A DNA stretch of 38,824 bases from Desulfobulbaceae bacterium (GTDB lineage Bacteria; Desulfobacterota; Desulfobulbia; Desulfobulbales; Desulfobulbaceae): the NCBI GenBank assembly GCA_015484845.1, contig WFUT01000022.1, positions 1 through 38,824 on the forward strand, read 5' to 3'. Below are positions 10,055-15,059 of this stretch, piece after piece; positions within the stretch are counted from its first letter, which is position 1; each line of letters opens with the position of its first letter. Below the pieces are notes generated by a model. The model worked only from the letters and a program-made list of their open reading frames with translations, was not told the origin of the DNA and did not search any database. A program made the translations under genes and the position numbers.

Positions 10055-11344
10055 TCAGGGCGCCGGGCGGAGCAGGAGGAACAGGAAGGGGAGGGATCTG
10101 GTCCTGCGCCCGGGCGATGGTGGTGGCGGTGCTGCCGGCGAGTACTCGTCGGCGCCGATATCGATCCCTGCCCCGCGCGGCCTCGGCTCGCCGTCAAAGT
10201 CGTCTGTCAGCCCCGCGACCTGGATACCGCTGTCCGTGACCCCTGCTCTCGGCGAGGCCAGGTGCAGGTCGCCGGCAGAGGGGGCCACGAACCATTCGGC
10301 CCGGGCCGTGGTGACGTTGTGGTGCAGAACGGCGCTGGCGCCGTTGCGGGAGACGATGGCCCTGTTGGTCAGGTTGTTGCTGATCATGACGCCGGTGGTG
10401 GCGGCGAACCGGTACTCGATGGCGTTGGGATAGGGGTGGTCGAAGAAGATGGTGTTGTTGTACACCTGGGCGCCGGGGGCCGATTCCAGGCCGATTCCCA
10501 CGTCGCTGTGGCCATGATCGCGGGGGTGATAGATCATGTTGTTGCGGATAATGCCGCCATGGTGGCCGCTGTCACCCAGGCCGAAACCGATGCCGCGGTC
10601 GCAGTCGATGACCAGGTTGCGCTGGACCAGGGTATCGCGGGAATCGGACCAGAAGTGGATACCGTGTTCGGCAAGGCCGCCGCTGCACCAGAAACCCCGG
10701 ATCTCGTTGTCCTCGATGGTCCAGCCCGTGGCCCGGTGGGCGTCGATGCCGCCGGTGTAACAGGAGCCGTTCCGGTTCCAGACAAAGGCGCGACCACTGT
10801 CGGTCAGTTCGATCAGCGATCCCCGGACCGTGCCGTGATCCACGGTGTGGGCGCCACTGGCATCGGGGTTGATCTTGATCGCCTGCTGGCCGGGGTCGAT
10901 GATGTGGACATTGTCGATGCGTGTGCCGGTGACGTTGTGGCCATCCGTGGCCATGACGTGGATCGGGTGATCATAGGCCCGTTCCAGGGTCAGGTCGGCG
11001 ATGGTGACGTTGGAGGCCACGACCTGGAAGATCTCCGTGGTCTGGTAGTTCCCGTCCAGGGTGACATCCTCCCTGTTGCCGCTGGCCGAACGGACCGTGA
11101 CCCCGTTCCTGGTGATGCGGAGATAGACGCCGTTCAGGTGATAGACGCCGTTCTGCACCAGGATGTCCGGGTCGCCGCCCGCGTTGGCCTGGTCCACCGC
11201 CTGCCGGAGCCCGGCAACGGTGCTCACCGTGACAGCGGCCGGGCCGGGCTGCGGCCGGAGTGCCAGCGGCAGGAGCAGGAAGAAAAGCCATGTTGACCGG
11301 GAGCGGCCACGGCTGATGTTGCCTATCCGGGACAGTGCTCGCAT
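10055..11344 (-). CDS. Secreted right-handed parallel beta-helix protein
   Basis: A 429-residue exported protein. A basic N-terminus (RIGNISRGRSRST) is followed by a hydrophobic signal segment (WLFFLLLPLAL). The body is a right-handed parallel beta-helix with repeated N-x-x-[IV] turns: NVTIADLTLERA, NVTGTRIDNVHI, WTIEDNEIRGF, TLVQRNLVIDC and GIIRNNMIYHP. This is the NosD/pectate-lyase style fold, usually for polysaccharide binding or cleavage. It closes with DFDGEPRPRGAGIDIGADEY, a typical end of such proteins. A short extra tail follows, PPPPSP then GRRTRSLPFLFLLLRPAP, matching its two upstream neighbours. ATG 11344 lies 2 nt after the stop of the FG-GAP gene and AGGTGA overlaps that stop, so translation is coupled. 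GTG 11350 is an alternative start. No catalytic residues can be assigned. Confidence 0.82.
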   Translation of the reverse strand: MRALSRIGNISRGRSRSTWLFFLLLPLALRPQPGPAAVTVSTVAGLRQAVDQANAGGDPDILVQNGVYHLNGVYLRITRNGVTVRSASGNREDVTLDGNYQTTEIFQVVASNVTIADLTLERAYDHPIHVMATDGHNVTGTRIDNVHIIDPGQQAIKINPDASGAHTVDHGTVRGSLIELTDSGRAFVWNRNGSCYTGGIDAHRATGWTIEDNEIRGFWCSGGLAEHGIHFWSDSRDTLVQRNLVIDCDRGIGFGLGDSGHHGGIIRNNMIYHPRDHGHSDVGIGLESAPGAQVYNNTIFFDHPYPNAIEYRFAATTGVMISNNLTNRAIVSRNGASAVLHHNVTTARAEWFVAPSAGDLHLASPRAGVTDSGIQVAGLTDDFDGEPRPRGAGIDIGADEYSPAAPPPPSPGRRTRSLPFLFLLLRPAP

Positions 11345-11346
11345 GT

Positions 11347-13101
11347 TCACCTGTGCAGGAGAAGGAGGTTGGTGGCAGGAATGGAGCCCCGGCGGCCGCC
11401 GGAGGGACCGCCGCCACCGCCGCCACCGGCCAGGGTGGCCAGGGCGCGGCCGTCGCGCAGGAAGTTGCCCCGGGCCGTGGGCCAGAGGAGCAGGTTTTCC
11501 GCCGATCCGGGCACGGTATAGATGAAGAGACCGGCGCCAAAGGTCTGGACAAGGATCTCCAGGGTGCCGTCGCCGTCGGTATCCATGACCGTGGGCGCGG
11601 CCGGCGCACCCTTGCCGTTGCCGTTGGTCCCCTGCTGCGGCAGCTGCAGGTCGTAGAGAACATTGCCGTTGCGGTCCAGGATCATCAGGTAACCGTGCGC
11701 GACCCCGGGCTTTATGTTGTCCGGGTCACCGTAGGTGGTCAGGATCAGCTCGGGGATATTGTCCTGGTTCAGGTCGGCCACCGTGATCTCGGAGGCGTAC
11801 ATCAGGGCCCTGCCGTGCCGGATGTCACGGCGCCAGAGACGGCTGCCCGTTGGCGAGATGCAGTAGATGTAGCCGTCGTGGCCGGCAAAGAGGATCTCGG
11901 GCCGGTCATCGCCCACCAGGTTGACGATGGTGGGGGCCGGGGGGCTGGTTGGAGGATACCAGCTGTGGCCGGCCCGGCTCAGGGGGTAGCCGGTGGATGG
12001 CAGGTTCTCCCAGCCCGCCAGGCGCCGGGCCGAGCGGTCGCCGTTGCCGTAGGATCCCTCGAGCACCATGACCGAGTGGTGCTTGGTGTCGTAGGGATCG
12101 CCCTTTTCCACGTTGGCCACCGCCACCACCTCGTTCCTGCCGTCGCCGTTGATGTCGGCCACCGACGGCGGTGACTCGGTCCACTGCAGCCATTTCTCGT
12201 TCTTGGGATTGGGCCAGGCCCCGGTGTGCAGGTGGTAGTGGTCCCGTTCCACGTTGGGATCGAACCAGCGGATGAACTGGCCCCAGTTGAGCCGGTTGCC
12301 GAGATATTGCGACGAGGGGTTGGTGAACCAGGGCGAGGCCAGCATGCTGACCCCGGTGTGCTGGAAGACATTGATCTGGTGGTTGTCAAAGGTGACCACG
12401 ATCTCCAGTTGGGGATCGTCGTCCAGGTTGCCGATGCCCACGTTGAGGCCGTAGCAGCCATAGCCGTGGTTGCCCGGCCCGTTGGCGTCGGCATCGTTGC
12501 CCGGCCCGTTGGCGGTGTTGTAGCGGGGCCAGGCCCGGAAGGAGAGGCCCGGCGGCTGGTAGAGGGTGCCGTCGGGATTGAAGACAAAGACCTGGGCACC
12601 ATTGGAGTTGGTCTGGGTGGTGGTGGCCACGATCTCGATGGTGCCGTTGCCGTCCAGGTCGCCGGCGGCCAGGCCCCGCACCTCGGGACACTGGCCGGCC
12701 GAGCAGGTGGAGGCGGGCCAGCCGGCCTTGGGGTGGAGAGCGCCGTTTTTCCATTCGTAGGCCACCACGTTGCTGCCGCTGCCGGCAACGATCTCGTAGA
12801 CCCCGTCACCGTCCAGGTCGGCGCAGACCGCGGGTGCGTAGATCCGGTCCTGCAGGTGGACCCGGTCCAGTTCGTTGCCGGCCGCGTCCCAGACGAAGAT
12901 ATCATAGAAGGTGCCGATGATCTTGCGCTGGTTGGTCCCCAGGTCGTGGACGATGGTGGAGGCGAACCAGGAGGTGCCGGTCCACTTGATCTGTTTCCTG
13001 AACACCGGTCGCTGGACCGGCGCGGACAGGGCAAGCTGCGGCAGGAAGAGGGCGGCCAGCAGCAGGGCGAGCCGGGGCAGGGGGAGGTATTTCATGGGCA
13101 T
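11347..13101 (-). CDS. Secreted FG-GAP/VCBS beta-propeller protein
   Basis: A 584-residue exported protein, with a signal peptide in residues 1-25 (KYLPLPRLALLLAALFLP). Seven calcium-loop repeats of the integrin FG-GAP kind are visible: DLDGDGVYEIVAGSG, DLDGNGTIEIVATT, NLDDDPQLEIVVTF, DINGDGRNEVVAVAN, NLVGDDRPEILFAG, DLNQDNIPELILTTYG and DTDGDGTLEILVQTFG. Seven repeats fit a seven-bladed propeller. Such proteins mediate adhesion or polymer binding, or serve as lids for hydrolases. The C-terminus is a Gly7 linker and the tail GRRGSIPATNLLLLHR. ATG 13101 or 13095 is the start; the long upstream in-frame extension lacks any signal peptide and overlaps the preceding gene. Genes on both sides carry a similar tail. 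Confidence 0.85.
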   Translation of the reverse strand: MPMKYLPLPRLALLLAALFLPQLALSAPVQRPVFRKQIKWTGTSWFASTIVHDLGTNQRKIIGTFYDIFVWDAAGNELDRVHLQDRIYAPAVCADLDGDGVYEIVAGSGSNVVAYEWKNGALHPKAGWPASTCSAGQCPEVRGLAAGDLDGNGTIEIVATTTQTNSNGAQVFVFNPDGTLYQPPGLSFRAWPRYNTANGPGNDADANGPGNHGYGCYGLNVGIGNLDDDPQLEIVVTFDNHQINVFQHTGVSMLASPWFTNPSSQYLGNRLNWGQFIRWFDPNVERDHYHLHTGAWPNPKNEKWLQWTESPPSVADINGDGRNEVVAVANVEKGDPYDTKHHSVMVLEGSYGNGDRSARRLAGWENLPSTGYPLSRAGHSWYPPTSPPAPTIVNLVGDDRPEILFAGHDGYIYCISPTGSRLWRRDIRHGRALMYASEITVADLNQDNIPELILTTYGDPDNIKPGVAHGYLMILDRNGNVLYDLQLPQQGTNGNGKGAPAAPTVMDTDGDGTLEILVQTFGAGLFIYTVPGSAENLLLWPTARGNFLRDGRALATLAGGGGGGGPSGGRRGSIPATNLLLLHR

Positions 13102-13128
13102 GGTGATCCGGTTGAGGATTCGCGCTGT

Positions 13129-13153
13129 CCGGCCCGCGGCAACCGCGGGCCGG
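13129..13153. other. Intercistronic GC hairpin between SGNH-like and FG-GAP genes
   Basis: A perfect 11-bp stem (CCGGCCCGCGG/CCGCGGGCCGG) with loop CAA lies between the stop of the gene at 13161 and the start at 13101, without a T-tract on either strand. It may stabilise or separate the two parts of the minus-strand message. Confidence 0.5.
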
Positions 13154-13160
13154 TGAATGA

Positions 13161-14198
13161 TCAGTTGTGCAGGAGGAGCGGCGCCCAGGCCAGGGTGTGT
13201 CGGCCGCCGCCCGGGCGGGAGGACGCACCGTCGGCACTGTCGCCGGGGTGGTCTTTGTCCGGATTCCAGCCGGCGATGCGGGCCAGGATCCACCACATGG
13301 CATAGGCCTTGCGGTTGGCGGTGATGTGCTGGGTGTTGTGGGCGCCGAAGGTGATGGGGCCGCCGGGTATTTTCCGGTTCGGGTACCAGTCCACGCCTTC
13401 GAGGTGGCTGTTCTGCCAGTCGACGTAGAAGTTGCCGCCATAGGCGTCGGAATCGCCGTTGTCACCGGCGTCCTGCCAGTAGTGGCCGGCCATGTCGTGG
13501 GTATCGATATCGTAATAGTCCAGGCAGAAATACCCGTGCTCCCGGCAGTAGTCGGTGATCAGCCTGGCCTGGTCGCGGGGGTGGCCGCTGCCCAGGTTGT
13601 TGTTCTTTTCGGCGTGGCCGGTCATGAAGATAAAGGTCACGGGCGTGGCCCGCTGGCCCGGGCCGTTGCCGATCCTGGTGCCGCCGGGCCCGTATTCGTC
13701 GATGAGGGTCTGCATGCCGGGCAGGTAGTTGCCGCGCACGTTGTGGCCGCTGATACTGCACCAGGACCACATGACCACGTTGATGGCCGCGTTGGCCGGG
13801 TCGTCCAGGTAGTTGCGGGTGGCCTGGATGAAGGCGGTCTCGTTGCGGCTCAGGTCCGAGGCGTCTTGGCCGGGCGCGTGATAGGCGGCCAGGGCGTAAT
13901 CATAAAAGTCGAGCCTGCCGGGTACGGCCGGCCCGCCGTCGGTGATGGCGAACAGGACGTCGTCGCCGCTTCGGAACTGCGGCAGCCCGAACAGGCCGTA
14001 GCTGACATGGGTGCCGTGCGAGGTGTGCTGGTAGGCGATGTGCAGGGTGTTGCGGGCCCGGTCGATGTACCGGCGGGGGATGGAACGGAGTACGGCCTGG
14101 GTGGCCACGGTATGGTCGGCGATGTACTGGTCCGCCCTGCCCCGGGTCGGCAGAAGCAGACAGAACAGGGTGCAGAAGAGTGGTATGGCGCAGCGCAT
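13161..14198 (-). CDS. Secreted SGNH-hydrolase-like protein, unknown substrate
   Basis: A 345-residue exported protein with a signal peptide (MRCAIPLFCTLFCLLLP). The pattern of short conserved blocks resembles a family of secreted proteins distantly related to SGNH hydrolases. The blocks are the early IAYQHTSHGTHVSYG block, INVVMWSWCSISGHN in the middle, FIFMTGHAEKNN, and a late DYYDIDTHDMAGHYW block followed by WQNSHLEGVDWY. No canonical GDSL motif is present, and the serine and histidine roles are guesses. The C-terminus is GASSRPGGGRHTLAWAPLLLHN in two pieces: a Gly linker, then the tail GRHTLAWAPLLLHN shared with the next two genes. ATG 14198 follows AAAGGAGG at 14209-14216, a strong ribosome binding site that rules out the longer reading to 14225. 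Confidence 0.78.
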   Translation of the reverse strand: MRCAIPLFCTLFCLLLPTRGRADQYIADHTVATQAVLRSIPRRYIDRARNTLHIAYQHTSHGTHVSYGLFGLPQFRSGDDVLFAITDGGPAVPGRLDFYDYALAAYHAPGQDASDLSRNETAFIQATRNYLDDPANAAINVVMWSWCSISGHNVRGNYLPGMQTLIDEYGPGGTRIGNGPGQRATPVTFIFMTGHAEKNNNLGSGHPRDQARLITDYCREHGYFCLDYYDIDTHDMAGHYWQDAGDNGDSDAYGGNFYVDWQNSHLEGVDWYPNRKIPGGPITFGAHNTQHITANRKAYAMWWILARIAGWNPDKDHPGDSADGASSRPGGGRHTLAWAPLLLHN

Positions 14199-14405: not shown

Positions 14406-15059
14406 TCATGCAATAATCTTGCCCACCTCCTTTGGTGTCAGGTTGTAATGGGCGGCGATCTGGGACCAGCTCATCTTTTGCTGCCGGTACATGGCCGCGA
14501 TCACCCCGGGTTTGGTGGCGGCATGCCGGGCCAGGGCGCAGATGACCGCGATCTGGCGGCCGTTGAATCCCTGCCGCCGCAGTTTGCTGATCTCCTTGCC
14601 GTCAATAGCGAAGAAGCGGCTGAGCATCCAGTCGGTGACCAGGGCCGCCGCCTCCCTGCTGTCGGCGCCCCGGGCCAGGGCCCTGAGCACGGGCGTGTCG
14701 CTCTTTTTCAGGCCCAGGGAGCCGAGGATCTGCTGCCAGGAGCCGCCGTTTTCCCGGACAGAGAGGAGCAGGTCCAGGCCGCGGCCGCTCTCCCGCGCCA
14801 GGTAGAGGGCGACCAGCAGGTCGTCGGGATCCGTGCCGCCCTGCATCTTCATCATCACGATTCGGCCCTTGCTGATATGGAAACTTTTCGCTATCAGTGA
14901 GTTGAAGGTGGTCGCCACCAGGTAGTCGTCGGCGGCAAACCGGTCTGCCGGGTCATAGCTGCGATGGCGGAAGCAGTGGCAGGAGGCGGTGGAGAAGGCG
15001 GCCGCGCCGGCCGTGGGCAGGAGAAGCGCTGTGAGCAGGAGGATCAGTAGCTGTTTCAT
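14406..15059 (-). CDS. Secreted protein of unknown function with SCHCF motif
   Basis: A 217-residue protein with a signal peptide in residues 1-20 (MKQLLILLLTALLLPTAGA). Next comes a cysteine pair in SCHCFRHRSYDPADRFAADD, then LVATTFNSLIAK. The rest is helical with recurring W-x-Q-I units: GGSWQQILGSLGLKK and MSWSQIAAHYNLTPKEVG, which end the protein. Similar proteins beginning CHCF occur, to my recollection, in other sulfate and metal reducers without a known role. The CxC pair could bind a metal or form a disulfide. It is the first gene of the minus-strand block and does not share the C-terminal tail of the following three. The ribosome binding site is weak. Confidence 0.72.
   Translation of the reverse strand: MKQLLILLLTALLLPTAGAAAFSTASCHCFRHRSYDPADRFAADDYLVATTFNSLIAKSFHISKGRIVMMKMQGGTDPDDLLVALYLARESGRGLDLLLSVRENGGSWQQILGSLGLKKSDTPVLRALARGADSREAAALVTDWMLSRFFAIDGKEISKLRRQGFNGRQIAVICALARHAATKPGVIAAMYRQQKMSWSQIAAHYNLTPKEVGKIIA

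Follow-up and report, generated by a model that had tools for sequence, protein, structure and literature searches.

Known C-terminal sorting tags have a tripartite build that includes a membrane helix and a basic end (PMC11980579, PMC3237569). The PEP-CTERM tag, which follows a linker on unrelated exported folds and has a proline near its start, contains a transmembrane helix and a basic end and needs an EpsH-type exosortase (Haft 2006, PMC1569441). In the GlyGly-CTERM/rhombosortase system (PMC3237569, PMC6219818) a Gly-rich linker precedes a hydrophobic end with a full transmembrane helix and an Arg/Lys cluster, and the lineage-specific MYXO-CTERM/myxosortase tag, present on several surface-protein cargos per genome, combines a membrane helix with an invariant Cys (PMC11980579). 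The C-terminal domains of type IX secretion in Bacteroidota provide a non-helix signal on folded exported cargo and are themselves folded.

The stretch of DNA analysed here (the window, 38,824 nucleotides from a Desulfobulbaceae bacterium) contains three consecutive minus-strand genes, each with a signal-peptide-like start, which encode an SGNH-like, an FG-GAP and a beta-helix protein (Table 1). Re-reading of the sequence confirmed the three open reading frames, their ends and the Gly- or Pro-rich linkers as given in the initial annotation, and all three tails matched the pattern GR[RH]-x(0,2)-[ST]-[LI]-x(3,5)-LLL-[HR] that it had proposed. The DNA string CT[CT]CTCCTGCACA, which it had reported as common to the first two genes, was found in the SGNH-like and FG-GAP genes; it corresponds to the LLLH codons, and a mobile or recombined segment was therefore rejected as its origin.

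Table 1. Tailed genes of the window and the parts of their products
Feature	Position	Strand	Basis
SGNH/acylhydrolase-like exported protein, 345 aa (tentative fold name)	13161..14198	-	ORF; N-terminal signal peptide + tail
SGNH-like protein, C-terminal tail GRHTLAWAPLLLHN	13164..13205	-	sequence; model residues 320-345
SGNH-like protein, flexible linker NPDKDHPGDSADGASSRPGG	13206..13265	-	sequence; low pLDDT
FG-GAP beta-propeller exported protein, 582 aa	11347..13095	-	PF13517, PF01839; signal peptide + tail
FG-GAP protein, C-terminal tail GRRGSIPATNLLLLHR	11350..11397	-	tail-profile match; orthologue ends
FG-GAP protein, Gly-rich linker GGGGGGGPSG	11398..11427	-	sequence
Right-handed beta-helix exported protein, 429 aa	10055..11344	-	PF05048, PF13229; signal peptide + tail
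Beta-helix protein, choice-of-anchor Q-like C-terminal domain	10142..10249	-	NF041518; adjoins linker + tail
Beta-helix protein, C-terminal tail GRRTRSLPFLFLLLRPAP	10058..10111	-	profile A1 match, E 0.44
Beta-helix protein, Pro-rich linker SPAAPPPPSP	10112..10141	-	sequence

Like PEP-CTERM, the window tails follow a linker on unrelated exported folds and the motif has a proline near its start, but they have no transmembrane helix and the exosortase was not found in the window's genome. The Gly-rich linkers of the FG-GAP and SGNH-like proteins recall GlyGly-CTERM, from which the tail differs in lacking a full transmembrane helix and an Arg/Lys cluster and in that a Gly linker is not general. 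When tag features were compared, the tail shared with MYXO-CTERM its restriction to a lineage and the occurrence of several cargos per genome that resemble surface proteins, but neither the Cys nor the membrane helix, and the type IX domains are much longer than the 8-14 residues found here. We conclude that the tail appears to be a real and so far undescribed C-terminal localisation tag, and not a PEP-CTERM or GlyGly-CTERM signal; no description of such a tag was found in the open-access literature searched.

The SGNH-like protein gave no match in a Pfam search. AlphaFold2 predicted a high-confidence domain for residues 23-312 and an unstructured tail with pLDDT under 50, and Foldseek returned weak matches for this model, the top ones including SGNH acylhydrolases, which is why the fold name is tentative. 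The FG-GAP protein matched PF13517 (E 4e-22) and PF01839 (E 1e-11), while its structure model, built from 3 sequences, reached a pLDDT of 46, too low for its tail to be assessed. The choice-of-anchor Q match of the beta-helix protein (NF041518) was near-threshold, with 24.1 bits against a curated cut-off of 25. The three genes are preceded by one for an exported protein of 217 aa (14406-15059) to which Pfam gave no match. This protein is also encoded next to the FG-GAP gene in further genera (L028, L322, L324, L331), and in two of these loci (L322, L324) sensor-kinase-like genes adjoin the tailed FG-GAP gene.

The closest relatives of the SGNH-like protein were found in Desulfobulbus sp. HyVt-437 (L027) and in another Desulfobulbaceae bacterium (L028), where the orthologues end in ...AMAWTTLLLNN-like and ...GTISLLLGQ sequences. 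Persistence of the tail in sister genomes, which the initial annotation had made a test of its proposal, was observed for the LLL end, kept in the copies of all three genes in both species, but not for the exact pattern: GR[RH]...LLL[HR], put forward as the conserved element, matched 0/6 orthologues in the two species. In a comparison of the three species, which covers few codons, the FG-GAP tail was well kept, whereas the SGNH and beta-helix tails changed with the LLL retained. FG-GAP orthologues from at least ten genomes of several genera kept the tail while their linkers were wholly different, with ends such as ...SLPPIYLLLK, ...PTPIYLLLL, ...SLAPIYLLLRHP, ...TMAPINMLLL and ...TVAPINMLLL, and the FG-GAP protein of yet another genus ends in ...RLPFLFLLLDD. 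Because these tails persist on differing linkers, neither the basic pair nor the Gly linker belongs to the conserved part, which is instead a [P/A]-x-x-x-L-L-L string close to the stop that recurs in many genera and on many folds. The initial proposal that exported proteins bear a new C-terminal tag for sorting or secretion was supported as an idea by the sharing of the tail among unrelated folds, its place at the extreme C-terminus behind flexible linkers and its specificity to one bacterial family, but its GR[RH] element and basic end were not.

Outside the genus, the nearest relatives of the SGNH-like protein are from Bacteroidales, with 60-70% identity. Most of these homologues stop two residues past the domain or carry a longer or different C-terminal extension, and the tail thus appears to be a lineage-specific addition. 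Horizontal transfer of the SGNH-like gene is suggested, with the tail either added afterwards or lost on the way.

The conserved motif reads [FLSM]-x-[P/A]-[IAV]-[YIT]-x-L-L-L and is separated from the stop by 0-6 residues. Across 53 tails, position 0 was P (40 tails) or A (9), position +1 was I, A or V, position +2 was Y, I, T or V, positions +4, +5 and +6 were Leu in nearly all, and the residues that followed were mixed. The tail is hydrophobic and about ten residues long, and the longest hydrophobic run had a median of 8 residues. Since the 19-residue hydropathy within the last 40 residues of the window proteins reached at most 0.04-0.17, there is no membrane helix; the tail is too short for one and has no fixed basic end. 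The likeness to PEP-CTERM and GlyGly-CTERM drawn in the initial annotation did not hold, as the membrane-spanning stretch and the required basic end are lacking and the known enzymes do not track the tail (see below). Cys is absent from the window tails and from the consensus, and linkers across the cargos were Gly-rich in part only, others being rich in Pro or Ser or missing.

For an unbiased sample, proteins were selected by the NF041518 domain alone, which precedes various C-terminal anchors. In most genomes of the family the proteins so picked ended in the tail 15-25 residues past the domain (for example FSLAPCIMPLLLH, NMAPIYNLLLK, TFLSAIYLLLLQD, FFPAVYLLLLGS, AFLPAIYSLLL and FLSAVYLLLL), and two further choice-of-anchor Q proteins in the window's genome end in SMAPCLAPLLLH and LLQPVYMLLLR. 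A profile built from 33 tails gave four matches at E<=10 in the window's genome, all of them known tails. With a cleaner profile (27 tails, 17 columns, cut-off E<=0.1) we obtained 67 matches in 71 genomes of the GTDB family. Of these, 62 fell in frames of 200 aa or longer and, by our count, about 41 of the 67 were outside the training set; the FG-GAP tail was the top match in the window's genome (E 0.0075). The SGNH tails of the window and its sister species, which fit the motif core loosely, were missed by the profiles. Among the long-frame family matches whose locus was read, 23 of 24 lay at the extreme C-terminus. When about 290 genomes sampled from the whole phylum were scanned with the same profile, 16 matches resulted and all of them were in frames shorter than 200 aa; a reversed-tail decoy gave 12 matches in 116 relatives, scattered over families and with none in genus g14. 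In the scan proposed in the initial annotation, with a profile from the tails and their homologues, the matches were thus largely restricted to the family and exceeded both the phylum control and the decoy. Outside the family the tail was found in one genus (f12/g33, two genomes) and on single proteins, such as one ending in VAPVHLLLLGN (L313). Tails were few per genome: the window's genome has five that are known, and closed g14 genomes gave no more than 12 matches each (E<=1). Genome G100 of genus g33 was tail-rich too, whereas most genomes of g7, g2 and g11, genera of the window's family, were tail-free.

Within the family, whose members are sulfur-metabolising bacteria, Sec-exported proteins of about ten unrelated kinds bore the motif, with host domains including SBBP, FG-GAP_2, NHL, Sortilin/BNR propellers, DUF7948, GH8, TSP_3, CARDB/DUF5648 and beta-helix, besides SGNH-like and FG-GAP_3 proteins. 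Nearly all complete tailed reading frames had a signal-peptide-like N-terminus, as judged by a hydropathy heuristic rather than SignalP. The domain types suggest that the cargo is located at the surface. Occurrence at the C-termini of unrelated exported folds in a restricted lineage is what the sequences of a C-terminal localisation tag would be expected to show.

The initial annotation had suggested that a processing enzyme is encoded elsewhere, with a protease or sortase-like gene co-occurring with the tail; among the relatives examined, neither exosortase, sortase nor rhombosortase tracked it. Exosortase (PF09721) was not found in three genomes of the window's genus or in many other tail-bearers and was present in many genomes with no detectable tails, and sortase (PF04203), which occurred in 12 of 116 genomes, was not among the genes found in that of the window. 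For rhombosortase (TIGR03902), the best match in the window's genome scored 37.7 bits against a cut-off of 84, and only 11 of the 116 genomes exceeded the cut-off; the lower-scoring matches are ordinary rhomboids, because all 14 control genomes give them too. All three enzymes were rejected as the partner, since their presence does not track the tails. The type II secretin GspD passed its cut-off here and in almost every relative, including family members with no detectable tails, and was uninformative as a specific partner. Ten tails searched against NCBIfam gave no match at E<=10, although the HMMER filters drop most matches above about 0.1, and TIGR03501 (GlyGly-CTERM) did not match the tails. 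In the neighbourhoods of tailed genes, only generic genes recurred beside unrelated cargos: the neighbourhoods shared the synteny of the FG-GAP locus, generic sensor and response-regulator domains, and the cargos themselves. The searches made here detected no receptor, protease or other partner of the tail.

Several other explanations of the tail were weighed. That it arose by chance from Leu codons in a GC-rich genome is hardly credible: a loosely similar Leu run ([LIMVF]L[LI]x(0,5)) did end 37 of 1405 roughly predicted genes (2.6%) in one relative, but at this rate the chance of three neighbours sharing such an end is about 2e-5, and conservation across genera and across GC contents of 43 to 65%, together with the low counts in the phylum control and the decoy, refutes it. 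The initial annotation had named profile hits to random GC-rich C-termini at background rate as a refuting outcome; GC content does not account for the tails, which are found in loci with 43-54% GC besides the window with 65%. It is also very improbable that the tails derive by erosion from a tripartite signal such as PEP-CTERM or GlyGly-CTERM. A Gly/Pro linker followed by a Leu run gives them a superficial likeness and some relatives do have an exosortase or rhombosortase, but in the window's genome, as in many tail-bearers, exosortase and sortase were not found and the rhomboids scored far below the cut-off; moreover, the tail length is kept across genera, and neither the low hydropathy nor the failure of ten tails to match NCBIfam fits such an origin. 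We give equally little credence to the view that the tail is a strand which completes each fold or serves self-association, although the motif could form a short beta strand, given that different folds precede the tail, that the linkers are of low complexity and variable length, that the SGNH tail is predicted to be unstructured and that most SGNH orthologues in other phyla lack it.

Short hydrophobic C-termini are the classic substrates of proteases of the Prc/DegS type, and the tail could accordingly mark proteins for such a protease, acting in quality control or processing in the periplasm. Here, however, 0-6 variable and often charged residues follow the LLL, hence the free carboxyl end is not fixed, the upstream conservation of P, I/A and Y/I/T exceeds what these proteases need, and the tail is confined to particular kinds of exported protein in one family, which makes this reading improbable. 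The main rival, still unlikely in our judgement but the strongest of those considered, is that the tail acts mainly as an outer-membrane secretion signal which recruits cargo to a channel for release. It is compatible with the same sequence evidence, with the near-ubiquity of the type II secretin and with the presence of GH8 and SGNH-like hydrolases, which could act when free; yet the secretin is as frequent in family members with no detectable tails, hence not specific, and many of the cargos resemble surface adhesion modules.

The explanation we consider reasonably probable is that of a genuine localisation tag, borne on a linker and bound by a dedicated envelope factor that retains the cargo or passes it outward. 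Cargo would be exported via Sec and would then cross the outer membrane, probably by the type II system present in these genomes, whereupon the envelope factor would bind the tag and the adhesins, propellers, beta-helices and glycosidases would be kept at the cell surface or passed outward. We prefer a model in which a dedicated factor that binds or processes the tag retains the cargo at the surface over release through a channel. Recognition of an internal motif seems likelier than that of a free carboxyl end, because neither the number nor the kind of residues past LLL is constant, and retention at the inner membrane, as for PEP-CTERM and GlyGly-CTERM, is unlikely for a tail of insufficient length to cross it. 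Points against this explanation are that no partner was detected and no specific gene recurs beside unrelated tailed genes, that the SGNH tails match the core loosely, and that each genome has few tails. Whether the tail (FLPAIYLLL/APIYLLL) also defines a new class of short C-terminal sorting tags that do not span the membrane, for which this family and a few relatives would have a dedicated receptor or processing enzyme in their envelope, appears to us evenly balanced. If functional, the tag would represent a sorting route outside the tripartite design of the exosortase, rhombosortase, myxosortase and sortase systems compared, and the family's surface proteome could be listed directly from sequence. 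Since tail matches range from none to a dozen per genome, phylogenetic profiling could then be used to look for the partner.

Genus g14 (eight genomes, several of them closed and near 5 Mb) was the tail-richest, most members having 3-12 matches each. In another genome (G045) the string FLPAI was present just past the signal peptide of one protein (L334:3172-3825, minus strand; AYPWFMFLPAIVNG) and at the C-terminus of another (L214; FWPMFLPAITNNSEP), and on the basis of this double occurrence a similar hydrophobic docking motif may exist near the N-terminus too.
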